Below are positions 14,779-54,375 of a DNA stretch of 64,000 nt, piece after piece; the first letter of the stretch is position 1, and each line of letters opens with the position of its first letter. Under the pieces are notes generated by a model. The model saw only the letters and a program-made list of their open reading frames with translations. It did no database searches and had not been told where the DNA came from. Source of the stretch: Heligmosomoides polygyrus polygyrus (Eukaryota > Nematoda > Chromadorea > Rhabditida > Heligmosomidae); NCBI GenBank assembly GCA_947396885.1, contig OX377202.1:86532408-86596407 (forward strand). The letters are read 5' to 3'. The position numbers and the translations under genes were made by a program.

Positions 14779-17700
14779 TTAATACATTACAATGAAGGCA
14801 GTAACGAGAACAAGTAGCAGTATCGTGGAGGATCGAGCTGAGTCGTCGACGTCGTGGTAGACATGAGGAGGTGCTGTCGTTGTGGTTGGCGGTGCTGGTT
14901 TTCGTGAGCTCGTCACCTTGGCAGTGGTCGCAGTGGGCGGCGGTTGCGTTGGAGCTGGTTCGGCTGAATGAAAACGATTACATCTGTCCAAGGCGCAGTG
15001 GTGGAGGACGTCGTTAGCGCCTGAATGACTAGCTCGGGTTCAAGACCGCACGCGAGTCAGAGTAACAAGGGATTTCTGTGCACTTACCGCCAACGATTCT
15101 CAACGAGACCTATGTGGTTCTCTAGGGAATCGTACTAGGAGCACAGTGGTAATTTTTTTGCGGCGGGTCATGCCGCTGGGTGCTACAAAAATGGCAAAAT
15201 ATTGTGCGTAATAAACCGGCCTCGCTTTGCAGTGGGCCCGAGAGGAATGGAGGCCATCTGGCTGACCCGTGTGCTGAAGAAATTCTAGCCCACGCCTCGG
15301 TTAAAATTTTGGTAATCTGCGGACCCCGCTTCTACAGCATTCCAGGGGTTTCGATGAAAAAACTCAGGGGGGGGGGGCACTTTTTAAGTTGCTCCCTTCG
15401 TCAAATTGTTTTTTCCGCAAATGGTTCGACAACGACGGAAACAGTCCGTCGAAGTAACGGCCGGTGAACACGGTGGGTGGGCAAGAACATCCGAAACACT
15501 GGTGTTTCTTCCGAGTCTCCCTTCCAACGTGTAGGCGCGCATTGTCGTGAATGAAGAAGACCTTGTCTTGTCTCCCACGAAGAGCTGCTTCAACGCGGTC
15601 CAGCTGCCTGCAGTAGACATCGCTGGTGACAGTAGTGCTTGCATGTAGCAGCTCCCAGTGAAAGACTCCTTTGCAATTCCACCAGACCAGAGCATCACAT
15701 TTTTTTTTTCGGTGAAATTCCTGTCTCGGAGTTCCTACTTTGCCGCGACTGAGCCACAGACGCTTTCGCGTGTGGTTAACGCAGGCTACCACTTTTCGTC
15801 CCTAGTCACCAGTTTCTCAAGCGAAGAAAAATTCCGCCGTAAAGTCAAGAAGTTCATGCACGCATCTTAGCGCACCTGTAGCTGATGACCGCTAAGTTCA
15901 TGCATCATCCATGTAGGATATCTATATCTCTTCCCAGGGCCACGTAGGTGTCCAGCTATGGTGGTGTGATTGCACTCGAGATCCTCTGCCAATTGGGTGC
16001 AACGCCGTGGGATCCTTCTTAGCCAGCTGCAGAAGGCGCTCCTAATTCGATGCGACTGGCCTTCCAGACCGCGGTTGGTCCTCCAAGCAGAAGTCTCTGT
16101 TCTTGAATTTCCGGAACTGTACTTTTCCTTCAATTCACTGCGACTGGCCTTCCATAGGAGACAGTGGTAGGTCCCCTCGTTCCACATATGTTATGCGACT
16201 CCTGAACTGCTTTGCTCTTTGAACTCGTAAAGCAGAAGCAGTCGTGAACGATTTTCTCTGCTATAGTCGTAACGGAATATGACGACAGTAGTGGTAAGAG
16301 CAGGTCAGCCTATAAAAACGTTGTTGGGAGAAGTCTTCAGAACACGTTTCAAAAATTTGGCGGAACGCCAAAGTGAGTGGCGCAAACTTTCCTTCCAACC
16401 TAACATTGTATTCCTCAGAATGCCAAACGGAGGTCTGGATGCCTACTACAACACAGTAAGGGCCGGATCAACATATCTCGCACTGGAGAGCAACATCAGC
16501 CCTACTTCTGAGTCTTTTGTATCTTTCAAACGAGTCGCAAAACATGCTCTCCTACAGAATTAGTGAGATTGCTGTTTCAAATTACTGAGTTACAGTTACA
16601 CGTTTTATCCTTTCTCGCTATGTTTCACAGTGATGTTTAAGTTTGGTTGATGCTATGTTGTATTTCTCACAACTGTCTTTTATGGTCGTAATAAATTGAA
16701 TTGAATTGAGTTGAGTTATCGAGCACCTTCGTGCTCTTTAAACGAAGAGGATCCACTGGGCTATTTTGGCACACGACGAGGGCCAATGAAGAGCATTGCT
16801 AGTCGTCAGTATTAAGGGTCAACGGGACAACAAATGGTGATGCCTATAAAACATCTCATTCTTTCCCATGAAGAGAAGATAGGCAGTATAACGGCTGGGC
16901 AGGGAGGAGTCTTTCTTAAGATGCGACACGACTCAAACAAGAACACGAAGGTAACTCAAAGGCATTGCGCCTAGTAGTGCATTTGAAGAAGGCGCCGGCC
17001 AATGCACGCATCTCAGATCAACGATGTTTGCTCGAGTCCCGCCCAAGCCAACCAAGCCTTCCATCCCTGTGGAGTCAAAAGACTGATACCACACTTGTGC
17101 TAATTTGTGCCACACAACATCTTCTTGAAACAGCATGCGTGGCGCCTCCCAAAAGTGATTCATTTATCCTTTCTCCTAAAATATCCAAAGGAGCGAAATC
17201 TCCGAACGATCGATATTCCTCGAGCGAGAAGAATCCAATGGAGCACTCTGGCACGCAACATGGAATGGCGACGCTGCTAGCCTCAGGTCAGGCAACTCGA
17301 GAATCAACGAAACGACAGGCAACAGCCAAAGGAGTTCTGTTTGTTGTGAAGAGAGTAGTGAATTACTAAGAAGTGAAGGTCGTGAGTGTAGCTATCTTAG
17401 ATTCTGATAAACGATACGCAAACTGAGCGGTCTTACCTGCAGCGATATTGACTCCGAAGGCGACGTCTCCAGGTTTCGGTAGCTTTACCGGTATGGTGAA
17501 GTCTATCGGATGAACGCCTCGATTCTTACCTGGAAGACGACTGAATAATGCAAACTATTCACCATTTTTAATCTGACGAGGTCATACATCCCGTTGCTAT
17601 GAAGATCTAAGCTATAAGCGAATAGGGCTCATCGTCTCTAAGGCGGTATTTATATTAGCTGATCGAAAAGTCTTGCAACACTAGCACAGCAATATTCAAA

Positions 17701-20700
17701 TTTGTTCCTATTTGCTAAAACAAAAACTCAGTCCACGATATATTCCTCATCCAATTCTATTCTGCCCCATTATTCAGGCAGCCTTTTCAATTCCTTTCCG
17801 CCAGAATTCCAAAGGCTGTGAGGAAAAGAATTCAGAAACCTCCATTTCCAGTTGACGTCGATCATCGAACTCTCTACCTCAAAGATACTGCTTCAGAGCT
17901 CTGAACAGGTGGTAGTCAGAAGGAGCGAGGTCCGGAGAGTACGAGAACTTCCCAGCCCAACTCCTGGACGCGTTGTCGTGCAGCAGGTAGACATCTTCTC
18001 GTCCTGGACGTTTTTGGCGCATGGCGTCGGCCAAGTTCTGGAGCTGGGTAGCATATACAGATGCTGCGACTGTGGTCTTACTATCCACCAACTCCCAGTA
18101 AAGCATGCCTTCTGAGTCCAACAGGCGGGCGTCCGGAACGAGGTCGACCTTCGAGAGAGATATCTCCAGCCTTGAAGCGCTGATGCCAACAGGCCGCTGT
18201 GGAATAGTGATTGACTTCCTCCTTGAATGCAGCGCAGATGTTGGAGGCTGCAGTTCTTGCCGAATGGCCTTGCAGAAATTCGTAGTAGACGATAGGTTGT
18301 AGGATGCTGCTGCCTATAGTTGACTATGTCGCTGTGTTCCTACTCGACGAGGCCTTATATAGTACGCTTGAGGAAGCTTCGAGAATGTACCGTGACGTCA
18401 CCGCACAAAATAAGTACTGTAAGAGCTTTAACAAATTTAACAGACAGTAGCATAAAGTGTTGCAAGACTTTCCGATCGACCCAATACTTCAGACGCCGGG
18501 CGACGCTGCTTTATGAAAGATACACAGTTCGCGTTGACGATCGATATTGATAGCTTTCATAAGCTCGCGATGTTCCGCGATGGAATATTCGTTTTTTTGC
18601 ACTTTTTTATCTGATGTCTGTCCTATAAGGCCATTACAATAAAATAAAATGAAATAAAATAAAAGTGTAAATGCTGGCGGAACATATGCTTCATACTTTT
18701 GGAAAATGATGTGCTCGTACCTAAAAGGCAAAGAAATGCCAAATAAATCGAGAGGATCGTTATTCACCATGAGCTCACTAAACCGCAAAATTTGTTGCAG
18801 CAAAATGGGAATTAGTTATTGTTCTTTCTTTGTCCTTGAGGTCGAAGAAAGAGTGGACGGAATTCTTTTCACCCAAACCTCGCCCAGAGTGTTTATTTGG
18901 AGGCTGATCACGAAATTAATGTCTGTTTTTGAAATTCGGCCGATTACGGTAGGTTACGGTAGGTACGAGTGACTACGGCTGTCGAGGTCATAATCGCCTA
19001 CTTCGCCGAGACTTTGGCTATAGGGGTTATCTGGGGTGCTGATTACGAATCTGACATCCGTTTTTCGTATTACGTAGGAGTACGGTAGGTTATGATAGGT
19101 GCGGGTGACTAGCGTCATGATGACTTAGTCAGCCTTAGTCACCCATGCCTACTGTGACCAACCGTAATACGCCAAATTTTCAAAACTGATATCAAAATCG
19201 TGATCAGAACCGCCAAATTACCCCCGGGCGAAGTTTGGGAGAAATAGGTGAATATGGCCTAGATGTCCTTAGTCACCGGTGCCTACCGTAACCCCACAAT
19301 CCTGGAGGTCGAGCAGAGCTCGAACAAAATTCGCCCAAAGTTCGCCAATGGGGGTTATTTAGGGTACTGATCACGAATTTGACATCCGTTTTCAAAAATT
19401 CAGCCGACTACTGGGGGTTACGGTAGGTACGAGTGACTACGGCTGTCGAGGTCATATGTAGTCACCGATTTCGTCGAAAATTTGGATATAATGGTTACCT
19501 AGGATGCTGTATACGAATCTACATCCCTTTTTCGTATTACACTGAACGGTAGCTGCGGTTAAGGAACGCTTTAGAATGGATTCCTGGAGGCATCCCTTGA
19601 GGCGATCGCTGCGGGACCACTAGCATACTGTGCTTCTACCGTATTTGCCCATTCTGTGAGTTGCTAGATTCGTAATCAGCACCCCGGATAACCTCCATAG
19701 ACGAAGTTTGGGCGAGGTCGGTGATTATTACCTCGACAGCTTTAGTCTACCGTGCCTACCGTAACCTACCGTAATCGCCGAACTTTCAAAAAACGAAAAA
19801 AAGTTTTTGACCTTGCCGGGAAATTTTTTATGAAAAAACACTCACTCCCGTGGTACTTCAGGATGTCGTCCGTATAGAAGGGCGCTTTGGAATTGGACCG
19901 TTCGAGAGCTGACGGCGCTCCATGCGCGTAGGCATCCTGTTGCTGGCCTTTGGCCCAGACGACGAACATCCGTCCCGGGCCGAGTGGGTGATCAGTGGGT
20001 TCGATCTCTGGAAAATAGGATCTGTTGACTGGTTCGATCCCTTGAGGTGAAATGGCACAATTACCTTGGATGGGTCTTCGGAACATGACAATCGTTCGTC
20101 CGTCAAGCTCACGACCAGCCACAGCAACCAGCGACATTTCACCTTCGTACCTGGAAGGGAAAGCTTTTAGAAACTACAGAATCGCGAAACAATGTCTACA
20201 GACTCATGGTGGACGCTTTGCTAGACTAGGATTAGTTTACTTGCACTTTATTGGCTTGTCGTTAATGCGTCCCACATGGGAAGATGAACCCGCCTTCCCA
20301 AATTGCATGGAACCGGCGCACCATTCGTGATTGGTTGATACGCATGTTCTTGTCGCCCCGCCTTCCTACGTAGGCGAGATTACCGACATTTACAGCCTCA
20401 TTTGTAACTAAGAAAGAGAACTACTAATTTGGACCACCTTCAGTCCATATTTATTCAGATGTTGAAACGGGAAAAATTAAACAATCGAACGCAACGCGCT
20501 TCACCAACCAGAAGTCCTCTAGCGGGGTGGATCGATCCCTGGAATAGGAGTCTTGCACTCGAGTACGTCCGTCTCGTACGGCGCCGATCACCACGTCAAT
20601 GCAGTCCATGGCATGGAGCGGTGCACGCAGAGCTGAGTCTACTGTAATACAGGAGAATTAGGGATTAGGGGGTTAACTGTAGGATTTTATTATTTACTAA

Positions 20701-23700
20701 AATAGAAACTCTTAAGCGGTTGTAAAAACTACATTTAAAAAAATGTTGTCCTTGGCAGTGGCTAAATTTTCTCAGCACAGAGGTTGCTCATACGTTTTCT
20801 ATCCAGTCTCTAACGCTGAACATGGCCTATGCTAGTCATTAGGGAACTCTGAAATATTCTAATTAATTATTTTTAGTTCCTTATACTATCATATTATAGA
20901 ATAAGCCGCTAAGCACTAAGTCATACTATCGATGGGCGCCGTCGGAAAAATTATAGCCATCAAATAGGGGAAAATTGGGGAACTGGTCATAAAATAGCGA
21001 AAAATGTCCAGACGCCTTCTACGTGCCAGAGGTCCAGAAGACGTGCCGAAGACGTCGCTCAACGTGCATGGAGAATCAGAAGATGTGCGGAACATGTCGT
21101 GCACTAAGTGGGATCATTGAGAGGGGCCAGAAGCAGTAACGGGGATCAATTCCAGTAAGGGAGGACCAGTAGCGGGGAACCAATACCAGTAAGGAGGGGA
21201 GGGGAGGGGATTAATGAGGGAGCAGTACCAGTAAGGGGGGGGGTAAGGGCGAACCATTAGGGAAGGACAGTAGAGGGGACTAACAATAAGTGGAATCACT
21301 AGGGAATGACTAACAAGGGAGGGTCTGAACGGGAGGAGCGTGTCATAGGGAGAAAAAACTTTTGAAAATGGTATAGACGACAGAATCCCCAAATCTCAAC
21401 CAGTCATTTGAAATGCGAAAATTCAGTAGCGCACAAGAACCAAGCCACTGACCTTCCTCGCATGAAGCAACCCCACTTCTACTGCGCTCCGAGCCGCTTG
21501 CCGGCAGAGGCATCGCGGGCGTACAAGACCCCCAAACTCGTGCTGAGCCGTATTCCTATGAGGTTCCAAGGACCCCTACTCCTTTGGTTTAACGACATGA
21601 CAAAAAATAAACACATTTTAATACTAATTGAAGAGTGGGGATTCGCCCCATATGACTTGCTTCCCCCGTTCAGACATACGCTTCGAACCCTTCCCTTTTA
21701 AGGGGGAACCTGTGAAGAGGGAACTAAAGGGATCAGTAAAGTGATCACCACTTACTTTCAGTCTAAAGTCTCTCAAATTATACCAAATCTCCCTTAAACA
21801 AAATAATATTCCAACCATCTTGGGGAGTCTGCAGTTTATCCTATAAGAAGCTCGTTTCGATTTGGAAGAGTTCGCTTTGATTTCAAAAGTGTTAGGCTTA
21901 GGCTTAGAAGACTGTCCAATTTGATTTGAAAAGTGTCCGATTCGACGGGAAATATAATATCTGCACGTTTGTTGGCTCTCTTCGTCGCCTAGTTAGTGTT
22001 TATTCATTTATCCATCTATCCGTCTACTCATTCATTTACTTATTTATCCATTGATTAATTTATTTATCCACTTAATTGGTTTTTTATCGTTGCATACGTG
22101 ATTGTAGTGGAGCTTGGGTGCATAGCCAGTACAAGGCTGTGCTCTCGATTTTTTTAAAAATGTATTCGAATGGTTTCGAATGCTCACAAATTTAGAACAT
22201 TCAAATCAACGGCTTTTCTGATTAATCGAATCGAAACCGAATAAATTCGAAAAATGCGGTTTCCTGAATATATGAATTCGAGGACAATCAAAGAATGCAA
22301 TTTTTGAAATATTCGATTTCGTGTATTCAAACTCAAATAAAAATCATTCGAATGCCTATAGGACAAATAGGACATTCGAGCACAATTATGATAGCCAGTG
22401 TGAGCGATGCAGTAAGTAAACAGAGACGAGGCACTACTCACGCAGTCCGTTGTTCCTCGGCATGACTGGACGTGGTCCTTCCTGGGCGACTTTCGCTGGC
22501 GGATGATCGCGATCAAAGATGGCTTCGCGTTGTTGTGCTTCTGTTTGTTCAGCCGTTGTATCGATCTGAAGACGAATCTTTTCGTGAAAACAGTGAAGCC
22601 CGAAGGACAATGACAACAACTGCAATGCAGGGAATGGGCAAGGGCCAGGTGTCATTTTCGTGAAAGAATCACTCGAGGTCTAGAGAGATTAAAGCCCTCT
22701 GTAAACGCTGTACCAAGGGTCCTTCCCCAACAACATTGGAGTTCTAGACAAGCAATAGGTTGAATAGCTGAGCACCAGCTAAATTGCTAAATATATGTAG
22801 TATAAATAGTGGTGGCTAAGCACCGTAAGCTGTCACAGCAATGTTTTGTTGTGATCAAACTTCTAGCGCCAGGCGGGACTCGAACCCGCACCTTCCTCTG
22901 ACCGGGCGGGAATGCTCTACGGCATTACATCACCGGCGCTGTTTGATCGAACGCAACATCCACACCTTGTGGGACCCATTAGCAACCACCCGCATATCGG
23001 GATGCCTCAATATATCGGGATGCGTAGAGCATTCCCGCCCGGTCAGAGGGAGGTACGGGTTCGAGTCCCGCCTGGCGCTGGAAGTTTTGATCGCAACAAA
23101 ACATCGCTGTAACACCTTACATTCTCGGTACCGGCCAATTGAGGCTTAAAGAAACTGAATTAAATACCGTATGCCTTTTGCAGGTAGATAGGGAGGATAA
23201 CGAGTGTGACTAGCGATAAATCACAGAATGCAAGAATACCAGCACCGACGGAGACCGAACCCGTGACCACCTCCTGCTAGGCGAGAGCACTACCACTGCG
23301 CAGCTAAGGCCTGCGCTAATTACGAGTAGCTCTGCCCATCGCTTCATCAGCGTTCGCGACATGCAGTCGAGAACGCGGAGTTTTGCCGGCCAGTACTCGA
23401 TGAGGAGGTCCATTTAGCAAAATCGGCCCGCATATTTGTAATCAGCGTTTGAAGCACATTCATTGGTCTCTTTACATAGAGAGCCGAAGGCATTCCCTGG
23501 TAATAAAAGCACCGGTTCTGTTGTTAAACCTTTTTATCGATTTTAGTTAATTTATTTAAAATCGTTTTTATAAGATTAGATTTTATTTTTAGGTTTTAAT
23601 TTTGTTGAATGTTCCAGGGTGCTAGAACCAATGAGCTTCACATTGTCGTTTCATTTGAGCCTTAAGCTTTGCGCCACGACTTGGAATTCGTGGCGCAAAG

Positions 23701-26700
23701 CTTAAAGGTTACTGTAGCTTTAACCAAATGTTTGTTGTTAAGGGAACCGGATTGAAGTCATACATGGATGGGCCGCGACGGTGGTGGCACGATAATCGGC
23801 GGCATCTGGACTTCTGAAGAGCGTTTGTTGCGAACTCCTGAAAAGGTTGAATAGTTTTCAACAAATGTTTTCACTCGTACATTTGTCAAATGCGAAATGG
23901 CATCTAAGCTGAGACCTGTCAATTAAGTAAGCACTACGACTAGCGCGACTGTAGCCGTAGCTAAGGACTAAGGGATTCTGCAGCCTTTTGGACGGTGACA
24001 GCACTTTTAGACCCTTAATCTACGGTGGGTCTAGTACAACCGTTCTAGATATCACACATTATTCGAACGACATCCACAGAAACAAGTATTCTTAAACGTC
24101 TCACCATCAGCGAAGAGCTCACCCTCTAGGTCGGGGAACAGTCGGCAAGACTTGTCCAGACCCTCCGGTCGCCATCCCAGCGATACCCAAGAGCTTGATG
24201 CGTAATCCATGATGACCTCAACGTCTCCCTAAACGATGGAAAATGTTTCACTAAAAAGTGGCTTTCTTAGGCGTGCATACGTCAGCCGTGTCTACCTTGA
24301 CTTTTCGGAAGTAGACAAAGTCGTTGTCGCTGAGTTTCTCCTTGTTGTAGCAGTTCGGATCGAACATACCGTACATCGCGTAGCTTTTCTCGTTTATTGT
24401 CGAGTAGGAGAAGCAGTTATCGTCACCGTACTCATAGCCTGAGATGGATTCTCAGCTAATATTAGGTTGAGTCAGAAATATTGCAATATTTCTGTGTTTT
24501 TCTGGAATTCAAGGCAAACCTGCTGAAGTGTTATATTTTGTTTGAAAGCCTGCTTTTCGAACAACATTATAAATTGAGAATCGCGATCTTTGAACTTTGC
24601 AAAGAATTTGTTGAAAAGTTTTAGTCTCTAGAACGATAACCACTCAACGTGAAAAAGTGCGTGATTTCATTTTCAATCAGTTTCAGCTCGGCGGAAACCC
24701 AGCGCCGGAAAAGTTGCAGTGCATGTCCACTTACTTTGCTCGCAGTTTTTCCCGAAGAATCCGTAGGAGCAATAGCAGCTGGCGGCAGCGATTGAGTTCG
24801 GCTCCTCAACGCATTTTCCACCGTTCAGGCAGTCTTCGTCATGATGGCAGTTGGCTGAAATTCAGACAGTGGGTGACTGTTTAGCAAAAAGGTCTTTTGC
24901 TGCCAGGAGCTTTTCGTGCAGCCCCACAAGCTAGTTCTTATAAAGGCAAACAAGATCACCTACTTCTATACTGACAAATGTCGCCCTTGTAGCCGTGTTC
25001 GCAGACGCATCGGTTGTTGACGAAGGTTCCATGGCCACTGCATTTATCGTCTTCTGAAAATACAGTAGCTATAAGGGATAATGGAGAAATGACGGCGTTA
25101 GTCAATCCTTTTTCGGACGCGCCACGCATTCTGCTTCTACGGGATGTCGTGGGGGTGATTTGAATGCGTATTTCTCCATACAATGACTTGCGCTGGGCAG
25201 ACCATAAACAAGCCAGTGTTTTATCCTTCTCAGACAAGTCTGGTACCAATTCTCCGGAGGTATGGAGGTTTTGGTTTGCCTGGGCGGGAAATCCGAACCA
25301 GGAACTTGGTATCGGTTGCATGCGGTAAACGGCACCTCCTCCGACTGCGCCCTGTAGTAGTTATAACTAGTATGTAATTACGTATATAGGGCACTTATAT
25401 AGGGCGGTGGAGCACAGCATCGATGTTGATGATACTGAAACTACTAGCGGACTACTGCAGGCGGGTGGCTCATCACAACGGCGTAAGGTGGCGTGTAATT
25501 CGTGTAATTAAATTTTCGTGCGCAATTCGTGCGCAAAGTATATGGTGAGAACGCTCTTGATTTTATTGGAGTAAAAAATGTTATTGAAAAATTCACTAGT
25601 TGTAAAGAAGTGGTGGGAAACAAAACCTTTTGATTGTGCTCCGTGCGGATGAGAGCGCATAAATACTGAGCCGGGGTAAGCAATCCAGGATGTGTTCAAT
25701 TTTGACACAAATGGTGTGACCACATCCTTAAATTTCTTGAATTCGCACGGGCTTTCTCCGCCAAAAATTAAAAACTTTAGAGAAAATTTCGTTGCAAATC
25801 TATCGAGAGAAGTCCATCCAAATTTCCTCAATAAAGTCCAAGGAATTTATCAAAAGTCCTGAAAGATAAAAAAACCTAGGTTGCCCTCCCTTTTTTTCGG
25901 AGTAAAACGGCCAGGTTTGGAAAAAAAATACAGGACGGAGGCTCCTCTTAAGACTTCACCGAAGTTTATGTTGAACTACAGGGTTAGAGTAGATCATCAG
26001 TGGGCAAAAATCCAACCATCTATAGGTGAATTTCCAATAAGTGACATGATTTTCGCCCTTCTATCGCAATTTGAACCTCGGTTCAAAAACAATTGCGGAT
26101 TCACCTCTGTTCCGGTGGAGGAACAACTACTCGATGTGTTGTTGTTCCTCCACTTTAACGGAGGTTCACCCGCATTCGTAGACCGCTAGGGGTGCGAACT
26201 AGAGTTGAGCTTTTCGACTTTTTTCGAAAGTCGAATAATCGAGTAACTCGATTTTTTGAAATTTTCGAAAGTCGAAGTCGAATAACTCGACTTTTTGCTG
26301 CTCTCGAAAAGCGAACAATCGTATAACTCGACTTCGAAGGCACGTTCCATAGAGAACCGAAAGAAGACAGAACAAGACCACAATTGTGGATGAAAAGAGT
26401 TGAATTTAGGAAGACAACTGAATAATCGTTTCAATCCAATTAGAAGACCAGAATAACAAAATACTTGGTCATTTCTTTCGGGAGTGGTGTATCTTCCCCC
26501 GGGTGGGAACATAGCCCAAACCTAACTAGGAATGCTTCCTCAGCTAGCGTTCGTCGCCGGTGCCGTACGCTGGACGTGCGAGCCACGCGGCCTGCCGGCT
26601 TCGCCGGCTTCGGGTACAGCATATTTTTTCAACACACATATAAAACCAGGTTTGTAAGGTAGCCTTTACCCGATTATGTTCAAGAGTCAGCTCTTTGATC

Positions 26701-29700
26701 ACAAGTCGCAATAGAATCAGTGTAAAGGCTAGGACGTCACCCGGAAGTGGAGCACAGAACCCCCGCCCGAGTTCTGTGGTCAGTATGCGAGGGCTACCGA
26801 GGGCCGAACGACCTCGGCTAAAGAAGCTAGTTCGACTGGGGACTCTGAATGTGGGAACGCTGACCGGGAGATCTAGGGAAGTGGCTGACCTGATGAAGCG
26901 CAGAAGGATACAAGTCCTGTGTCTGCAGGAAACGCGATGGAAAGGGGCGAAAGCCAAGGAGATCGGAGAAGGGTCAAGCTGTACTACAACGGAGAGGACA
27001 CCAAGATGAACGGGGTAGGGATAGCTGTCGCGGAGTCCCTCAAGGATTCAGTAGCGGCTGTCCAAAGAATAAACGACCGCATCATGTCACTGCGGCTGGA
27101 CACGAAGGAGGGTTACTGGACCATCATGTCTGTCTACGCTCCGCAGACCGGATGCTCCGAGCACGACAAGGATGACTTCTACCTCTCGCTCGAGGAAGCC
27201 ATAAGGTCCGTACCAGAAGGCGACTACCTCTCCATAGCAGGGGACATGAACGGGCATGTGGGGAGTGGCAGAAGAGGAGTGGAAAGGGTTCATGGAGGAA
27301 AAGGGATCGGCCTGGTAAACCCGGATGGAGAACGAATTCTGGATCTGGCTATCGCCCACGACCTGGCTGTCTGTAGCACCTTCTTCGCGAAGAGGGAGAG
27401 CCAGAAGGTGACCTATGCTAGCGGAGGAAGAAGAACGGAGGTCGACCACATCCTGGTTCGAAGGGCTGCCCTGAAAACAGTCCGGAATGTGAAGGTCATT
27501 CCGGGAGAAGACGTGGCATCACAGCACAGACCCTTGGTAGCCGACCTTAGCATACCTCTACCCACCAGGCCCAAAGTGAGGACGGAACCCAGGATCCGAT
27601 GGTGGAGACTGCGGGGTTCAGAGCGGAACGAGCTACGAAGGGCAGTGCTCGAAGCAGGCCTTCCAGATCCAGCTGGTCCCGTGAATGAGACCTGGAGGAG
27701 GGTAGCCGAAACAATCCTGAGATGTGCCAAGGAAACCCTGGGAGAAACAAAGGGAGGAACCAGAGGGAATAAATCGGCATGGTTCTGGAACGAAGAGGTG
27801 CAGGCTGCGGTGAAGAGGAAGAAGGAGGCCTACAAGCTGTGGCAAAAGACGAGGGCACCCGAGCATCTCACAGCCTACAGGAAGCTGAAGAGGCTGGCAA
27901 AAACAGCTGTAGCGAAGGCAAAGAACGCGGAAATGGATGCCCTGTACGAGAAACTAGACGGGCCAGAGGGAGAGAAGTTCGCCATCCGCCTGGCAAAGGC
28001 GCGTCATAGAGCTAGCCTCGACATTGGAGTAGTGAAGACTGTGAAGAGTGCTGACGGTAGAGTGTTACGGAAGCCGGTCGAGGTCAGAGAGAGATGGGAG
28101 GAGTACTTCAAGGAACTCCTGAACGAGGAGTTCCCTCGTCGGGAGGCCGAGGAAGAACAACCAACGGAAGGACCCATCCCACCCTGGACGCAAGAAGAGG
28201 TTCGCAAGGCCATACGGAAGATGAAACTCGGAAAGGCAGCAGGGCCTGACGGTGTGCCAGTAGAGGCTTGGAAGGTGCTCGGGGACCTCGGAATCAACTG
28301 GCTGACGCAGTTCCTCAACAGAATCACGAAAGAAGGTAAGATGCCGGATGACTGGAGGAACAGCACCATAGTCCCCATCTTCAAGCAGAAGGGAGACGCT
28401 TCCGAATGCTCCAACTACCGAGGGATCAAACTGATCTCACACACGATGAAGATCTACGAACGACTGGTCGACTCAAGGCTGAGGGAGATGGTACCCATCT
28501 CCCAGGTGCAGTGGGGCTTCATGCCTGAGAGGTCCACCACAGACGCCATCTTCATCGCTCGTCAGGTGATGGAGAAATATCGGGAGAAACGAAAACCCTG
28601 CTACCTGGCATTCCTGGATCTGGAGAAGGCCTACGACAGGCTAGCTCGGGCCGTAATCTGGAATGCCCCTCGAGGGAGGGGTGTCCCGGAACGTCTGATC
28701 ACGGTCATAAGGGACATGTACGAGGGCTCGAAAGCGGCGATACGAACTCCACACGGGGTGACAAGGGAAGTGGACATCACAGTGGGGGTACACCAAGGGT
28801 CGGCTCTGAGCCCGTTCCTCTTCCTGCTGACGCTTGACTCTATAGTGAACCACCTTGAGAAAGGCCCTCTCAGAACGATCCTCTACGCGGACGACATCGC
28901 CCTAGTAGCCGACAACCAGGAGGAGCTGGAGGAGAAGGTGCAGCTGTGGCAGAGAGCCCTTGCGGACAACGGCCTACGGCTGAACGTGAAGAAGACGAAG
29001 TTCATCAGCTCTGAGCAGTGCGCTGGATCGATCCTAGACTGCCAAGGGGAAACGATCGAGAAGGTGGAAGAATTCCGCTACCTCGGGAGTGACCTATCCG
29101 AGGAAGGAAGTGTGGACCAGGCGGTCAGGGGACGGATAAACGCAGCCTGGCTCAAGTGGAGGGAGTCCACAGGGATCCTCTGCGACCGTAGATGCTCCAG
29201 GACGCTCAAAGGCAAGCTCTATAGAACAGTTGTAAGACCTGCCCTCCTCTACGGCAGTGAGTGCTGGGCCCTGGGTAAGGCGCAGGAGCGGCAACTGCAC
29301 GCGGCAGAGATGAGGATGCTGAGGTGGGCATGTGGATGGACCCGTCGGGACAGGGTGCGAAACGAGGATGTTAGGGCAGTGATGAAGACTGCCCCGATCC
29401 AGCTGAAGATGAGAGAGCAGCGCCTGAGGTGGTATGGACACGTCCTCAGAAGACCAGAGGATCACCCCACAAGGTTCGCCCTAGATTACGAGGCACCCGG
29501 AAAGCGTCCGAGAGGAGCCCCTAGGAAAAGATGGAAGGACGTCATCAAGAGAGATCTCGCCGAAATCGGCGCCACGGCAGATGACGCCCTTGATAGGATG
29601 AGGTGGCGACAGATCACAAGAACAGCGGACCCTGCGACTGCGCGGGACTAAACGCTCAGGAGAAGAAGAAGAAGAAGAAGTCAGCTCTTTGTTCCTGTTC

Positions 29701-32700: not shown

Positions 32701-35700
32701 TTATTCGGCTGACGTTTTGGCGTAACCGCTTTCTTCAGAGTACGGAAGAGTCAAGCGAGGTTCGAAAGGTTGCTCGTCCAAAAACTATGTTTCCTCTTCC
32801 TATTAATATCTGAAACTCTCGTGACGTGAAATAGTTCTTGGACGAGTAACTTTTCAAGCCTCGCTTGATGCTCTGAAGAAGGCGGTTACGCCGAAACGTC
32901 AGTCGAATGAAGTGTGGATAACAAACATCACAGATCGAACAGTCGATTTCCAAATAATACCTAGTGATGTCAAAATAATCTCGATCTTTAGTCACTACCG
33001 GTTGGCCACAGGAGTGTAATCAGTTTCTAAAAAGCTTCGAATGATATTCAATCGTGAAAAAATGCTGGATTAAATCAAGAGAACGACCGTTATTGTCCTT
33101 AGGCAGTCGTCGATTGCGGTCAGTAAATGTTACCTGGCACAGTCTCCAACACGTTGACATCGGCGCAGCTTCGGAAACGATAGCTCTTTCCCCACTCGAG
33201 TGCTTGTCGTTCCAACAGAACGGTGCACTCGAAGCAGGCTCGTGTGAACCGAACGTTTTCCGATTGTGCTCTGAAGAAGACGAGGATTAATAAGCACTAA
33301 GAAATCATGTGGGCGCGTGTGGCGCAGTCGGAGGAGGCGCGACTGTCGCGTGCACCCGATACCAGGTTCCTGGTTCGGATTTCCCGCCCAGGCCAACCAA
33401 GCCTTCCATCCCTCCGGGGTCGGTGAATTGGTACCAGACTTGTCTGGGCGCTGACTTGTTCATCGGCTGGCCACCGCAAGTCATTGTATGGCCAAATACG
33501 CATTCATGTCGCCTCCACGACATCCAGTAGAAGTAGAATGCGCTGGCGCATCCCAGAAGGGATTGAGTAACGCCGTCCTTTATCCTTTATCCTAAGAAAT
33601 CATGTTGAAATGACCGAAGACGGAAGTAGGAGACAAGAAATACTCTCACATTTATTTCCGTTTAAATCGAATTGTAAGGGCAGGCCAGAGTATAAAAAAT
33701 TAAAAATTTCTATCTTTTCTAGGCAAGGAGGCTGCAAACGATTGGTTTATTAGCGCGTCTAAGAATAGATGCTTAAGAAAACCTGGGAGCGCTCCATAAG
33801 AATAAAGGATAAAGGACGGCGTTACTCAATTCCTTTTTGGGATGCGCCACGCACTCCACTTCTACGGGATGCCATTTGACCTTATAATGAATTGCTGTGG
33901 CCAGCCAATTAACAAGTCAACGCTTTATTCTTCCCATACAGGTCTGGTACCAATTCGCCGACCGCGGGAAATAGAAGGCTTGGTTGGCCTAGGCGGGAGA
34001 TCCGAACCGAGAACCTGGTATCGGGTGCACGCGACAGCCGGCACTTCCTGTTGCTGCGCTACAGGCGCCCCTGGAGCGCTTCATACGTAGAAGAAGTGTT
34101 CCCCAGCCATATCGATCAATACTCAACCCACTTCATTGCTGTGCTAAGAGCTCTGGTCTCCAAGTGTCATTCCAAAAGTTGCGAGTTCGCGTTTCAATAG
34201 CAAAAAGTAGAACCGAGAAGACAAGTTCTCAAGGCGAAACTTTTTGGCAGACCCTTACGGAGGTAGCGGTGTGATGGAGAGTAATAGATGTTTCGCCCTA
34301 CTGCTTCCAGCGGCAGGTGACGTCCTCTTATTGAGAACTGACGAAAAAAGATATAAAAACTGATTATGAAGGTCGACATGTTGCTTTCTCCACGAGCTAC
34401 GTAATTTACTCCATTTCTTGGTGAGCTCGAAAGAATTTTTTAGAGTTTTTAAAGCCAATATTCCCTAAGGTAGGTGCTGAGGTGCTTACAGGTTGTCGTC
34501 ATTGCCGGCGAATTCGATTCCGTTGATCGGCGCCAGCTCTTCGACGGTGTTGCCGTCCTTGTCGATGAGAGTGATCCGATAGCCGCCCTTAAAGAATGGT
34601 ATAACCTGAGGTGATCAGCTGAGGTCCGTGCCGAACCCTCTCAGATAATTTCGGTTCAATCTTAATATCCTGAATGGAGACCATACTAGAGAACGACTCC
34701 GGGTTGCTGTGACATTTTGAGATGATGAGATGGGTATATCAGTGGATACAGTTTTGAACAGTGGGAACCAGTGGTGTGTGATTCCACTTCCTGCATATAT
34801 TTTGCACTTTCTATGAAAGATCCGACACGATAGATCCGATTCGAGAGGGCTGGTTCGGGATCAGTGATGTGCGAAAATTTCAAAATTTTTTACAGGAAAC
34901 AGAAAACAGAAATGCCAGAAACGACAGAAAACAAAAAATTTAGAAATGATTGTGTTAGCCATCTATTATATTTACATACGCATTTTTTTTATTAACCAAC
35001 ACTTTTATATCATTTCACGTCAAACTGAACACCTCTCAAATAAAAGCGAATAGGTGTGTGATTCAAGCAGATCCTCTTTTTTTTCGAAAATTTATAATTT
35101 GCTTTCAGCAAGAAATTGAGTGCAGTTTTTGAAATTCTTTGAAATCTCGATTTTTAAAGTTAAAACAATGAATCAAATATTTTTTCAACGTAAGACAAAG
35201 CAGCAAATTTTGATGGTATAAAGGAGGCCAGACCCTGCTCTTGTCCAGGTCGAATGAATTTTTCTATAATTGACAGTGTAAATACTATCTTCTTGGAACT
35301 GTACAAACGATGTGTGGGTGTTTTTTTACAATCGTTTTTGTCGTTCTTCAAGTATGTAACAACGTAAAAAACATTCTTGTTATCAACAAAAGGAAAATCG
35401 CGACGTCCCAGACGGCAGTATGTTGAAAAATAAATTGCTTATAAAATTTTGAACAATGTGTTCACATTTTGTGGCAGGTCAATTAAAAAAGTCAGAGTAA
35501 ATTTTCCTCGTACCATAAATCATCAGTAAATTTTTCTAACCGTCTCGGAGTGCATTTGTTTTAATTTGGAAGGCAAAATGTTCAATTTGGTCTTAAAGGT
35601 ATCAGTTCACTTAGAAGAGTGTCTCTTTTGAAAAGGTGTCCGATATGAACTGAAAAGAAACACATCTTATCCAAAAGTGTCACTGCTACCTTTTTGTCGC

Positions 35701-38700
35701 TGTCCTGTCTACTAGACATCGAAACAAACAAGACAGAAGCTGAGGGCGTTCTCTACATTAACAGCATAGGTTGAAGCAACGCACCTGGTGCGGATACTGC
35801 ATCCTCCATGTGATGTTATAGGTGCTACCAACTGCTAAACTCGTGTAGTGTGCTGAAATTGAAGGATAAATGGCAAATAACAACAATAATCAAATCCTTT
35901 TGGGACCAATAATCAAATTCTTTTTAAGTAAATGGCAAATAACAACAATAATCAAATCCTTTGCATTCTACGTCTACGGGATGTCGTGGAGGCAACTTGA
36001 ATGCGTATTTGGCGTATGTAATGACTTACAGTGGGCAACCGATTGTCACATTCGTGTTTTAAAGGAGGCTAGTCTGATACCAATTCAACGACCCCGGGGG
36101 AATGGAAGGCTTGGTTGGCCTGGGCGGGAACTCGAAGCAGGAACCTGACTCAGGGTGCATACTACAGCCAGCACCTCTTCCGACTGTACTACACGCGCCG
36201 TGAAAGTGAACCAGTGCAGTTCTATTTTAAGTTCTACATCCTGTGATTGTGATGTGCAGATTCCAGGACTACGGCTATTGTCGGTCGGTGAGGGCTAAGT
36301 AATCACTTAGTGGTCAGATGAAGAAGCATCGACTTCGAAAACAAAGTTTACTCGTTCTCGAGGTGTGTACAAAAAATGGATTATTTTCACTTTTAACGCC
36401 ATTGTGGGACAGAAGTTAGTGCTCCTACCCTCTGGCCCTCACTAAAATGAATCCCATTCACTTATTTCGTAAGTAATGAGGTTTGAACAATCCTTGGTAC
36501 TGGTCGTTGATGTGGCCTACATGCTGATAGGCTGTCGCAGCTAATGATTGCGCTCAGTTCCTCCAACTTTTGGTCTCGCTCTCATATTGCGGCGATGAAC
36601 AGAGTTTCATGGTGACTTTTCACTTTCGCACCGCTTCGAAAGGGAAAAGCTTTTTGCCGGCAGTAATGCAGACAGCGATTCGAATCGCCTATAACGAGCA
36701 CGAACTTCATCAATCATCTAATTAGATGTCACGGTTTCGGCAATGAAATTTTTCGAATGGGTTTTCCATCACTTCAAGCGCATAACCGTATCTCATCTCA
36801 CCGTTGGTGGCTGGTCGTAAATGTCAGTCCCTTCGTGGAGGAGAGGAACAAGGACACAAGGCGGTTGAAGAGAAAGAAAAAGAGAAATGGAGCGCTTGTA
36901 GTTCTTCTATAGAACATGCAGGATCTATCCTATCAGGGAGAGGGGGGGGGGGGTGGGGAGCGTTTTGCGTCTCCAACCCCTCCTTTGAATTTATCCCGGT
37001 GCCTTAGCTACCGACAAATGATAAGATGGCACTCACTGGAGAGCCAGAGAATGTGATGCCTTGTCGTAGGATGTTGGACGCAGCTGTCACCTTAGCACTC
37101 CTCCCTCCCGACTAGGATACACTCAACATTCAGACTGGTCGGAGAGAAACTGCTCGAAAAGTAAACTCAAGCTCTTCTGACTAGAAAGCTCTAAAGAAAT
37201 GTACGATCTTGGGCTAGTCCAGTGTATCGCCTCTGTAAAATGGATTATTTTCAATTTTTTATTGTAAATCCCAATGACTCGACTTCTTTAAGAAAACGGG
37301 TTCGAACAATCCTTGGTCCTGGTCGTTAATGTGGCCTGCATGGCAGCGGAAGGTGGCGACAATGCACCGCATCGAAGGGGCGCGATACTACGAGAGGCCG
37401 ATGCCCTGACTGGCTAGCTGTTTGGTCGGTCTTTCAATTGGCTGTGATTGGCTGGCGCGCTGTCAGCTTCCATTGTAGGCCACATTAACGACTGATGCCG
37501 AATCCCTTTTTTGGGGTCTAGAAGAATTTGGCCATCAACAGCAACTGGTATCGTCGGAAAATGTTGGAAAATGGAGCGCTTGTGATTGTGATTCCTTTAT
37601 AGAGCGGTCATCCTAGACTGTGGGGGAACTGCTGTGAAATCGAACTAACGACAGACACAGTGGGCTCTTCTGACTAGGAAATTGCAATTGAAAGAAATAT
37701 ACGCTTTCGGGCTAGCGGCAGTGTATTGTCTTCATAAAAATGGGTTATTTTCAATTTTGATGCTGTTGTAGAACAGGAGTTAAGTGCTCCCACCCGAACC
37801 CCTCACGAAACAAAATCCCATTCACTCGATTTCTTATAAAAAATTAGGTTCAAACAATCCCTGGTACTGGTCGTTGATGTGGCCTGCATGCGAGAGGGAC
37901 TGACAGTGACAATACGTTTTGTCAAAATAGACCTCGTTACCGAGAAGAACACGGAGAAAAACAATAGCTAACGGTGATCGTATAAGGATACTTGAACAGA
38001 TCCGGTCCATTTATCGAGTGATTTCCTTCTTCTGCCAACTGGTACTTCTTCGCAGCGTATGATTGTTATTATTTATCATTCCACAATTGTAGTCTTTTAT
38101 TTTGTTTGGTCGTTTCGGTTGTTTTTTAACTCATTTTCAATAGCTTTTCCTTCGTTTTCTTCTACTGTGTCCTTTTCTCTTGTTGGTGAGTCATGGAGCA
38201 CTCGAATTTAGCGTGTCTACACCGAACCAAAATGCATGTTACTATAAGGGGCCGGTGCACAACGGCTAGATTCACCAAGTAGTAGGTATAGGTAAAGATA
38301 CCGTAGGGGAATCGTACCCGCTACCAGCAATGGGTAGCGGGAACGATTCGAAACAAAAAAGGAACCAAAGATATGGTTAAATCTAGTCTCTCGCGAGAAC
38401 AGTTGATTTCACTGGAATGAGGAATTCTCGTGGGTGTGCAGATATATCCGCGACGATCGTCGAGTTTTCTCTACCCACTGATATACCCACAATGTGACGG
38501 ACAAGGTTTATCATGAATGCCTCGTAGGTACGCTCACTCCTTATACCACGCATATCCGCGGTATGAGCCTCGATAAATCCGGCCCTTATTGGCGGCTGTT
38601 TGATCAGTCCCTCAATTGGTTGTGATTGGCTGGCGCGCTCCAACCTTCCAGTGTAGGCCACATTAACGACTGACGCCGAATCCCTTATAGAAATTAGAAT

Positions 38701-38933
38701 TTCGGGATTCTAGGCGAAACTAGCCATCACCAGCAACTGCGTGTCATCGGCAAATGTTGTGAATCGTGCGAGCACTCACGTTGACGCGGTTTCGGCACAC
38801 CGCATGGTCCAGACGTCCTTGAGGTGTCCAGAAAATCCAACGCAGGAAATCGGGCGTCCGGGAACGTCAGCGCCACATGCGCCTCGTTCAGCACCGGAAG
38901 TGACAGTAGTAGCAGTGGGACCAGGTCCCTCAT
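14779..38933 (-). CDS. secreted His-domain/EGF/DOMON protein, probably GPI-anchored, 15 exons
   Basis: Not assigned to a named gene. Exons in order: 38933-38780, 37104-37037, 34605-34490, 33270-33134, 25053-24976, 24854-24735, 24438-24296, 24228-24105, 23837-23764, 22565-22438, 21575-21483, 20150-20065, 20007-19846, 17529-17437, 14963-14779. Phases match throughout, giving about 586 residues. Residues 1-18 are a signal peptide (LVPLLLLSLPVLNEA); the mature chain then starts HVALTFPDARF, with GPCGVPKP following. RQALEWGKSYRF and RSCADVNV close this domain near residue 158. Two Cys-rich EGF-like modules follow (about 159-224, with CLNGGKC), then DOMON at about 272-515 (VIMDYASSSWVSLGWRPEG, YARDASAGKR, GRTIVMFRRPIQ, YHGSKNRGVHPIDF). 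A Pro/Thr stalk and hydrophobic STILLLVLVTAFIVMY tail suggest a GPI anchor. The exon 2 acceptor, exon 10 donor and exon 11 are the least certain parts. Intron 4 (8 kb) carries a LINE. Confidence 0.82.
15384..16190 (-). pseudogene. mariner transposase, degenerate
   Basis: Two adjoining frames give a mariner-family transposase. The N-terminal part (16187-15890) has TQLAEDLECNHTTIAGHLR, the helix-turn-helix region, then a WMMHEL motif. The catalytic part (15792-15480) has VWWNCKGVFHWELL and the second catalytic Asp in FFIHDNARLH. A stop and frameshift separate the parts, and the third catalytic residue and the C-terminus are not recognisable. It sits in the last intron of the DOMON gene. Confidence 0.85.
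16736..16830 (+). pseudogene. LINE 3'-end fragment
   Basis: Short remnant of the arginine-rich C-terminus of the second LINE family (compare 52240-52335), recognisable from GAAGAGGATCCACTGGGC and the GGTCAACGGGACAAC end. Confidence 0.5.
16975..17180 (+). repeat. SINE-A copy, degenerate
   Basis: Recognised by GAGTCCCGCCCAAGCCAACC and the tail ATTCATTTATCCTTTCTCC. The head is strongly decayed. Confidence 0.6.
17190..17315 (+). pseudogene. LINE 3'-end fragment
   Basis: Encodes RSIFLERE-like residues, then the ending CGAGCGAGAAGAATCCAATG ... GGCACGCAACATGGAATGGC of the second LINE family, as at 52230-52300. Frames are broken. Confidence 0.55.
17661..18477 (-). mobile_element. internally deleted mariner element with both ends
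   Basis: The terminal inverted repeats are 22 bp with one mismatch: GATCGAAAAGTCTTGCAACA at 17661 and its inverse at 18456-18477. Between them, read on the minus strand, lie transposase remnants: the block containing ACFTGSWWIV or, in another frame, GMLYWELVDSKTT, then DVYLLHDNA, then FSYSPDLAPSDYHLFRALKQ. The last is the canonical mariner catalytic region with its final Asp. At 817 bp it is shorter than a full mariner (about 1.3 kb) and frameshifted. It lies in an intron of the DOMON gene. Confidence 0.85.
18900..19790. repeat. array of short GGTAGG/CTACCG-rich repeats
   Basis: Segments such as TACGGTAGGTACGAGTGACT, GGGGTGCTGATTACGAATC and GTCATAATCGCC recur several times at 18920-19110, 19350-19520 and in inverted orientation at 19130-19300 and 19660-19770. 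Copies are diverged and of mixed orientation. No open frame is shared by the copies. The array abuts the DOMON gene exon at 19846. Confidence 0.75.
21845..21960. repeat. AAGTGTCC-family end fragment
   Basis: Contains TTCGATTTGGAAGAGTTCGC and AAAAGTGTCCGATTCGACG, the right-hand end of the family. The rest of this neighbourhood (20640-21440) is AT-rich and GGGAGG-rich unique sequence with no gene. Confidence 0.6.
22831..23114. repeat. fold-back element with tRNA-like arms
   Basis: The left arm (22831-22945, minus orientation) and right arm (23020-23114) are close inverted copies. Each arm contains a block of about 74 bp with B-box-like GGGTTCGAGTCCCGCC, a five-pair T-arm (GCGGG/CCCGC) and, in the left arm, complementary ends GCGCCGG and CTGGCGC like an acceptor stem. 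The D and anticodon arms do not fold normally, so this is tRNA-like rather than a tRNA gene. It lies in an intron of the DOMON gene. Confidence 0.75.
23205..23510 (-). repeat. SINE-B copy
   Basis: Read on the minus strand it starts TTACCAGGGAATGCC and ends GCATTCTGTGATTTATCG. An A-box-like CTGCGCAGTGGTAGTGC and a B-box-like GGGTTCGGTCTCC lie near the 3' end. Two other copies are at 47405-47725 and 57908-58232. Confidence 0.7.
23662..23705. repeat. perfect 18-bp hairpin
   Basis: TTAAGCTTTGCGCCACGA at 23662-23679 is followed by an 8-base loop and its exact complement at 23688-23705. It lies 59 bp past exon 9 of the DOMON gene on that gene's strand, in the intron. Confidence 0.9.
25073..25357 (-). 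repeat. SINE-A copy
   Basis: Full-length copy in intron 4 of the DOMON gene. Tail GATAATGGAGAAATGACGGC, head complement at CACCTCCTCCGACTGCGCC. It is the source of both SINE pieces that flank the duplicate in eIF3d intron 9. Confidence 0.9.
26190..26345. repeat. TCGAA-rich simple-sequence tract
   Basis: Imperfect iteration of TCGAATAACTCGA-like words. Similar tracts occur at 22150-22380, 30640-30850 and 32200-32650. Confidence 0.6.
26698..29678 (+). mobile_element. full-length RTE-type LINE retrotransposon
   Basis: An insertion of about 2.98 kb, flanked by perfect 13-bp direct repeats AGTCAGCTCTTTG at 26685-26697 and 29679-29691. It has a short 5' leader (about 87 bp), one long coding region and a 3' end in (GAA)n at 29661-29678 instead of poly(A), typical of RTE elements. 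The exact target duplication marks a recent insertion. It lies in intron 4 of the DOMON gene, on the opposite strand. Confidence 0.93.
26785..29651 (+). pseudogene. LINE endonuclease/reverse transcriptase, one frameshift
   Basis: The product is an apurinic-like endonuclease plus reverse transcriptase. Translation from ATG 26785 gives the endonuclease start LVRLGTLNVGTLTGRSREVA and CLQETRWKG, then loses frame at 26971-26973, where one G appears to be missing. The second frame carries everything else to the stop at 29651: VKLYYNGEDTKMNGVGIAV, the endonuclease motifs SVYAPQT, IAGDMNGHVG, VDHILVRR and SQHRPLVADL, then RT motifs GKAAGPDGVP, NYRGIKLIS, LAFLDLEKAYDR, HQGSALSPFLF and the catalytic LYADDIALVA. 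The C-terminal region with RMLRWACGWTRRDRVRNEDV and WRQITRTADP follows. Apart from the one frameshift, about 950 residues are open, so inactivation may be very recent or an assembly error. Confidence 0.93.
31141..32186. mobile_element. 1.05-kb palindromic element with mariner-like ends
   Basis: The whole element is one inverted repeat: its left 480 bp match its right 480 bp in reverse with scattered changes, around a centre near 31650. Ends are TTAGGTTGTCCCATAAG and the inverse of TTAGATTGTCCCATAAG, flanked by TA at 31139-31140 and 32187-32188. The ends and TA target suggest mobilisation by a Tc1/mariner transposase. No transposase is encoded. Confidence 0.85.
32520..32650. repeat. tandem repeat, 41-bp unit, about three copies
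   Basis: The unit begins TCGATTTCGAGTAATGTTCG and continues AATAACGGTTTTCCTCGAAAG. Copies differ by a few bases. It continues a TTCGAA-rich tract that starts near 32200. Confidence 0.8.
32685..32933. repeat. fold-back MITE, arms of about 95 bp
   Basis: 32688-32790 and 32840-32932 are inverted copies sharing CTGACGTTTTGGCGTAACCG, CTTCTTCAGAG and GCTCGTCCAA. A related end occurs near 13911-13943. Confidence 0.8.
33309..33596 (+). repeat. SINE-A copy, best preserved head
   Basis: The head reads GGGCGCGTGTGGCGCAGTCGG with a typical tRNA A box; the B-box-like GGTTCGGATTTCC follows about 70 bp later. The tail is CGCCGTCCTTTATCCTTTATC. It lies in intron 3 of the DOMON gene. Confidence 0.9.
33801..34074 (-). 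repeat. SINE-A copy, inverted partner of 33309-33596
   Basis: Tail GATAAAGGACGGCGTTACTC at its low-coordinate end; the head complement ends GCGCTACAGGCGCCCC. With the preceding copy it forms an inverted pair 200 bp apart in one intron. Confidence 0.9.
34985..35690. repeat. AAGTGTCC-family dispersed repeat
   Basis: Begins CACGTCAAACTGAACACCTC and ends AAAAGGTGTCCGATATGAAC. The middle holds TTGACAGTGTAAATAC, shared with the copies at 41-42 kb and 61-63 kb. No gene is present. Confidence 0.65.
35960..36203 (-). repeat. SINE-A copy
   Basis: Starts inside the body at TTCTACGTCTACGGGATGTCG and runs to the head complement CCGACTGTACTACACGCGCC. The SINE tail is missing. Confidence 0.8.
37325..37493. 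repeat. MITE with GTCGTTAATGTGGCC ends
   Basis: Left end GTCGTTAATGTGGCCTGCATG and right end TGTAGGCCACATTAACGAC are inverted repeats. Family members or ends also appear at 36503-36530, 37870-38675, 48540-48640 and 58512-58672. Interiors share GATTGGCTGGCGCGCT. Confidence 0.7.
38220..38780. other. upstream part of intron 1 of the DOMON gene
   Basis: Holds one end of the GGCCACATTAACGAC MITE family (38590-38680) and otherwise unique sequence. The GTGAGT donor of exon 1 is at 38779-38774. Confidence 0.5.
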
Positions 38934-54289: not shown

Positions 54290-54375
54290 CTATAGCACCA
54301 GGTGGGACTCGAGCCCACACCATCTGTCAGCGGAATGAAATGCTGCACGGCATTACACTACCGGCGCCGTTTTGG
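54290..54375 (-). repeat. single tRNA-like arm
   Basis: Minus strand: GCGCCGGTAGTGTAATGCCG, then the B-box GGGCTCGAGTCCCACC and CTGGTGC. Ends pair like an acceptor stem. It is the same family as both fold-backs at 11.7 and 22.9 kb, but only one arm is present. Confidence 0.65.

Follow-up and report, generated by a model that had tools for sequence, protein, structure and literature searches.

A gene on the minus strand of a 64,000-nucleotide stretch of the Heligmosomoides polygyrus polygyrus genome (contig OX377202.1, forward-strand positions 86,532,408 to 86,596,407; hereafter 'the window', within which all positions below are counted) raises the question of whether a nematode protein might combine a copper-binding histidine brace with a DOMON domain on one chain. 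The gene runs from 38933 to 14779 in 15 exons, with a 1791-base reading frame encoding 596 residues: a signal peptide (residues 1–18), a Cys-containing domain (approximately 19–148), two EGF domains, a linker-interrupted DOMON domain, a Pro/Thr-rich stalk and a hydrophobic tail. An initial annotation had proposed that the signal peptide is cut just before a histidine, that exons 1–4 join into the Cys-containing domain, that this domain resembles the copper modules of lytic polysaccharide monooxygenases (LPMOs) or of the X325/Bim1 family, and that a DOMON domain lies later on the same chain.

At the exon borders the acceptors are AG and the donors GT, and the phase is consistent throughout. Joined, exons 1–4 encode MRDLVPLLLLSLPVLNEA up to the predicted cleavage site and HVALTFPDARFPALDFLDTSRTSGPCGVPKPRQ from it onward, continue through YPHQGGYR and close on FRSCADVNV. 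A protein from Ancylostoma ceylanicum (P0001) aligns with the window protein from end to end (73.6% identity over 598 residues), and because P0001 and other nematode proteins run through the exon joins in the same register, these joins, including those of exons 1–4, are supported. In a Pfam scan the DOMON domain scored 36.1 bits (PF03351), above the curated cut-off of 32.7, and the N-terminal domain gave noise-level matches only, the best being Kre9_KNH with an E-value of 0.077. The C-terminal end is hydrophobic and is not followed by basic residues; the protein is predicted to be secreted and, judging from this tail, is probably anchored by glycosylphosphatidylinositol (GPI).

A search with residues 1–230 returned 41 proteins (E ≤ 0.01) from nematodes of several clades, from the tunicate Styela clava (P0038) and from metagenome or transcriptome data; one of them, the Notch-like P0041, is not a family member. 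A search with P0035 returned 22 proteins, of which 19 were new, among them one from the springtail Folsomia candida (P0055). The order of signal peptide, His-led domain, EGF domains, DOMON domain and tail, which the initial annotation had proposed looking for in nematode proteomes, recurs in the full-length relatives. The occurrence in nematodes, a hexapod and a tunicate, although drawn from few named species, suggests that the family was present in the bilaterian ancestor. Conservation was counted over 61 rows (60 proteins and the window protein), with unreadable rows excluded position by position.

A small residue, of a type acceptable to signal peptidase, stands directly before the mature domain in all 47 domains with enough upstream sequence (Ala in 21, Gly in 16, Ser in 7, Cys in 2 and Thr in 1; 48 domains were extracted, and P0059 was too short upstream), and 49 of 53 readable rows begin the mature sequence with histidine. 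This pattern lies far above chance and confirms the initial observation in sequence and family register, with cleavage before His19 as predicted. A second histidine, His73 in the window protein, is present in 49 of 52 readable rows, two misread rows having been corrected, and a profile alignment places it on residue 91 of the AA15 LPMO TdAA15A (5msz), whose copper ligands are His1 and His91, with Tyr184 in the axial position (PMC5823890). Tyr184 opens the sequence YRNCADIAI in 5msz, five residues ahead of the Asp; at the corresponding position, 53 of 55 animal sequences have Phe (Phe139 in the window protein) and the other two, both from Angiostrongylus (P0005 and P0032), have Leu. A second histidine and an axial residue, both of which the annotation had advised searching for, are present in register. 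The words GPCG and CADV, to which it had also pointed, are present, but as copper-specific marks they failed, being general to LPMO-superfamily sequences and not ligands; CADV was rejected as a copper-site word, and is also found in AA15 (YRNCADIAI), X325 and bacterial relatives.

Fold and relatives of the N-terminal domain

Structure prediction, made on two relatives (P0001 and P0042), gave LPMO-type matches and not an unrelated fold: both models align with AA15, AA10, AA16 and AA11 structures as an LPMO-type beta-sandwich. LaX325 appeared among the 50 matches listed for the P0001 model and was not among the 50 listed for the P0042 model, a difference that does not point to another fold. For P0001, the range aligned with 5msz starts at residue 36, equivalent to chain residue 5, so that His32 falls on residue 1; the points at which the two models' aligned ranges end (163 with 195, and 152 with 195) agree with the equivalence of the axial position to Tyr184.

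We also compared the family with SCE4755-type proteins (NCBIfam NF043005) from eight bacterial loci (L001–L008; seven from Myxococcota and one from Bdellovibrionales, all from metagenome-assembled genomes). When a profile of 46 animal domains (omitting P0003 and P0048, which have odd gene models) was compared with six bacterial domains in hhalign, the two aligned over 120 columns with 98.6% probability, with His1, the second His, the axial aromatic residue and CAD in register. All 27 animal domains of a selected alignment, A2, match NF043005; A2 is a subset of the 48 extracted domains in which every member has His1 (four non-His sequences were left out by choice), and it also underlies the 5msz profile alignment and the LPMO_10 and PF20238 profile check. 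Animal and bacterial proteins share, in the same order, a signal peptide, His, P..R, PCG, W...H, CxxC and CAD(V/I/L). They differ at the axial position, which is Tyr in seven of seven bacterial proteins and Phe in animals, and in that inspection by eye found no EGF or DOMON domain in the bacterial reading frames. A scan of prokaryotes with the animal profile found no relative. The best explanation of these likenesses is that, among the families tested, SCE4755-type LPMO-like proteins would be the nearest known relatives of the animal domain. By eye, L001, L003, L005 and L006 end in low-complexity linkers, a hydrophobic segment and then arginines, which look like a surface-anchoring tail.

The family profiles and predicted models together support the assignment of the N-terminal domain to the LPMO superfamily, with a predicted histidine brace ahead of a DOMON domain on one animal chain. 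Single relatives also scored near or above the LPMO_10 cut-off of 23 bits (22.0 bits for Haemonchus P0002 and 23.5 bits for P0059).

Within that superfamily, X325/Bim1 (PF20238; LaX325, 6ibh) was our first choice as the home family, from PF20238 scores above the cut-off in four relatives, and was downgraded by ligand counts and a profile mismatch. The two families share His1, the second His and the CADV end. In X325/Bim1 an Asp from a Gly-rich loop coordinates the copper, whereas in LPMOs the same place stays open to an exogenous ligand (PMC7529816). The Asp of the GGDG loop (eight residues before the Asp of CAD), presumably this copper ligand, is present in 62 of 64 fungal X325 domains (extracted by pattern from 72 matches), as opposed to two of 55 animal sequences (P0055 and P0056); the window protein has Ser. 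At the axial position, all 64 X325 domains have Leu in place of the animal Phe. A profile comparison of the 46 animal with the 64 fungal domains aligned the first 10 residues only, at 6.8%. Asp38 of LaX325 was rejected as the loop ligand: it is not in columns at least 90% conserved among the 64 fungal domains, whereas Asp122 is. Two further comparisons with LaX325 were set aside: its position in a MAFFT version of the family alignment was clearly wrong, and hhalign of A2 with LaX325 alone aligned 12 residues. Because the axial Phe is present and the GGDG Asp absent, the animal site appears nearer to LPMO than to X325, and 'LPMO-like' is the better fit to these sequences than 'Bim1-like'. The initial reading of an LPMO/X325-type brace module holds at the level of fold and sequence, through the models, the four PF20238 scores and the bacterial profile, but its Bim1-like part fits less well, given the missing Asp.

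Proposed mechanism and its alternatives

The best overall explanation, which we hold with moderate confidence, is a cell-surface copper redox protein with the DOMON domain as electron donor and a matrix glycan as target. After signal cleavage, His19 and His73 would form a copper histidine brace, and binding of copper by the domain is very likely. Because the site has the LPMO-type axial aromatic residue (Phe139) and lacks the closing Asp of X325/Bim1, oxygen or peroxide should be able to take up a free equatorial position; we give a redox-active open site an even chance. The two EGF domains would keep the copper domain beside the DOMON domain, whose fold is common to dopamine beta-hydroxylase (DBH) and the heme cytochrome domain of cellobiose dehydrogenase (CDH), and which could pass electrons to the open brace copper to give a self-contained extracellular enzyme. 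Electron transfer between the domains is a tentative proposal, and equally tentative is a glycan substrate, which might belong to matrix, cuticle or eggshell. A broader version, in which an ancient single-chain animal copper monooxygenase related to SCE4755-type proteins, with a built-in heme DOMON donor, would extend from nematodes to tunicates and be off in Caenorhabditis, seems rather unlikely.

Several observations weigh against this explanation. The structural evidence comes from models of P0001 and P0042 and not of the window's own protein; the N-terminal residues of the two models, which include the first brace His, are of low confidence (residues 29–37 and 14–28 fall below 50 in the predicted local distance difference test), probably owing to the signal peptide in the precursor, and in the P0042 model residue 24 matches chain residue 5 of 5msz, which leaves His21 off by one at His1. 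The window protein gave no match at E 10 or better to PF03067 (LPMO_10) or to PF20238 (BIM1-like, cut-off 27 bits), and its domain reached 32.9 bits against NF043005 (E 5.7e-8), below the cut-off of 75 bits; the four animal proteins scanned singly also stay under that cut-off. Two positions ahead of the second His, TdAA15A has Ala89 (PMC5823890), whereas the animal family mostly has Tyr. In the DOMON domain a Met (LHxMDCxD) is conserved in 54 of 54 readable rows and a His (KYH) in 45 of 47, but the Met stands four residues before the conserved Asp, compared with three in CDH (Met65 and Asp68), and a sequence alignment with CDH gave no usable ligand match. Heme in the DOMON domain is uncertain for these two reasons, its chances falling slightly short of even; the best structural match to this domain, the DOMON of DBH, binds no heme.

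To the same side belong the lineages in which the putative site is altered. Besides the axial Leu of the two Angiostrongylus proteins, Auanema has Asn in place of His1, and all three Caenorhabditis orthologs that the searches returned (P0028, P0029 and P0031), which have Ser, Ala and Gly there, are also the three exceptions at the second His, having lost both brace histidines and kept the EGF and DOMON domains. In view of these cases some lineages would be able to do without the function. In Caenorhabditis the domain is, in addition, 11 residues shorter and has an altered RQALEWG, so that the loss of the pair is one change among several in a more general divergence; for that reason the joint loss is a weak sign that the two histidines form one site. 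A coupled loss of the DOMON His was seen in only two of the three (P0029 keeps it) and was not used as support.

Among the alternatives, the first is copper acquisition or storage, in which a GPI-anchored Bim1/X325-like binder would feed a transporter and the DOMON domain would reduce Cu(II) to Cu(I) for uptake. A GPI tail has been reported for X325 (PMC9695133), which is described as fungal (PMC10952591). Against such a role stand the Asp and axial counts and the ten-residue profile alignment given above, together with the alignment range of 6ibi, which extends beyond the domain to residue 499, and we consider it unlikely. A second alternative, that the protein binds matrix or glycan without catalysis and that the copper site is an ancestral leftover, takes as its precedent Knickkopf, a GPI-anchored DOMON protein that binds and protects chitin in insects (PMC4140639). 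The Caenorhabditis proteins, which retain the architecture without either His, fit this idea, and suggest that a copper-independent role is possible there. The His pair is nevertheless retained in most of the nematodes sampled, in the springtail and in the tunicate, so that in most lineages the metal site is probably under selection, and we consider a purely binding role quite improbable. Finally, that the N-terminal His and motif words are coincidental, in an unrelated beta-sandwich, might be argued from the window sequence alone, which has no Pfam relative above threshold and, like the P0056 domain, found no LPMO in a single-sequence search of PDB sequences, but can be dismissed as extremely improbable given that family profiles, both predicted models and the bacterial relatives all indicate the LPMO superfamily.

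If the copper redox explanation is right, the protein may drive its own copper redox chemistry, and the family would be a further histidine-brace family for animals, linked to bacterial LPMO-like proteins. A predicted brace and a DOMON domain on one animal chain make the question of electron transfer directly testable: does the DOMON domain hold heme, and is the copper reduced? Caenorhabditis provides a natural loss experiment, and loss there would, if true, account for the system having gone unnoticed in the model worm; the intact His pair in several parasitic nematodes has possible relevance to cuticle or eggshell biology.

Gene features and repeats in the window

Exons of the gene, with their content and the evidence bearing on each
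Feature	Content	Position	Strand	Evidence
Exon 1	Signal peptide (1–18), His19 (codon 38879–38877), first third of copper domain, PxR and GPCG	38780..38933	-	Homologs in register
Exon 2	Second brace His73 in YPHQ (codon 35790–35788)	35785..35852	-	His aligned to TdAA15A His91
Exon 3	Copper domain, central strands	34490..34587	-	
Exon 4	CxxC, RQALEWG, axial-position Phe139, SCADV end of copper domain	33134..33270	-	Phe at TdAA15A Tyr184 position
Exon 5	EGF-like domain 1	24964..25053	-	Pfam EGF_2/EGF_Teneurin
Exon 6	EGF-like domain 2	24735..24854	-	Pfam
Exon 7	DOMON start	24296..24438	-	
Exon 8	DOMON strands with GWRP, CRLFP	24105..24228	-	
Exon 9 (tentative)	Linker within DOMON	23764..23837	-	Comparable linker in P0001
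Exon 10	Linker within DOMON	22442..22565	-	FDRDHPPAKVAQEGPRPVMPRNNGL-like stretch common to P0001
Exon 11	DOMON second half, LHAMDC (Met389)	20509..20641	-	PF03351, 36.1 bits (cut-off 32.7)
Exon 12	DOMON	20065..20150	-	
Exon 13	DOMON with KYHG (His503)	19846..20007	-	
Exon 14	DOMON end	17437..17529	-	
Exon 15	Pro/Thr-rich stalk, GPI-like hydrophobic C-terminal tail, stop	14779..14963	-	

A database protein from Heligmosomoides polygyrus (P0034) is near-identical to the window protein over the EGF and DOMON exons, with differences that look like gene prediction; it starts inside repeats and lacks the copper-type N-terminal domain. Within the 8-kb intron that separates exons 4 and 5 lies a 920-codon open reading frame (26889–29648, plus strand) that matches reverse transcriptase (PF00078, 124.5 bits) and, weakly, an endonuclease, corresponding to an element like a long interspersed nuclear element, which may be the reason that P0034 is without the N-terminal exons.

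Exons 5–7 with their introns (24335–25256) are repeated approximately 14.9 kb downstream, at 9321–10400. Two 300-base pieces of the repeat are 94 and 99% identical, and the second copy, which stops inside the DOMON exon, would seem to be either a partial duplication of recent date or an artifact of assembly. The introns flanking exon 14 contain two PF01359 transposase pieces (partial DDE domain) on the minus strand, at 17882–18313 and 15367–15801. Two matches to a transfer RNA model, both on the minus strand and above the Rfam threshold of 29, lie at 22865–22939 (34.2 bits) and 54294–54367 (29.1 bits), and are possibly tRNA-derived repeats.

Comparison with known systems

We found no account in the literature of the His pair, of how the family is distributed among animals or of a link to SCE4755-type proteins, in searches that did not use the name SCE4755 as a term. 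For their LPMO tree, Voshol et al. (2019) devote one sentence to a branch with DOMON/EGF and LPMO_10 domains, in a section that names no species, residues, brace, structure or function (PMC6950343); that branch very probably includes the present family. A 2023 review of histidine-brace proteins describes AA15 as the LPMO class that reaches into animals and places X325/Bim1 in fungi, and treats electron transfer by histidine-brace proteins as an open question, with a possible role for X325 (PMC10952591). TdAA15A is about 20% identical to the animal domain, and AA15 proteins include fusions with carbohydrate-binding or chitinase domains, in an account whose passage on fusions does not mention DOMON or EGF (PMC5823890). 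Knickkopf has DM13 domains, unlike the animal family described here (PMC4140639).

The initial annotation considered a copper module and a DOMON domain on one animal chain to be unusual. That combination is not new in itself, since DBH joins a DOMON domain to a copper enzyme. DBH and MOXD1 are among the closest known systems; the copper domains of DBH are of another fold, and its DOMON domain is without heme ligands. In fungi the cytochrome domain of CDH (AA8-type; 1d7b/1d7c) lies on a protein separate from the LPMO, whereas the animal DOMON domain shares its chain with the copper domain and has its Met displaced by one position. Compared with the fungal pair of LPMO and CDH cytochrome, the animal chain would be a fused counterpart.
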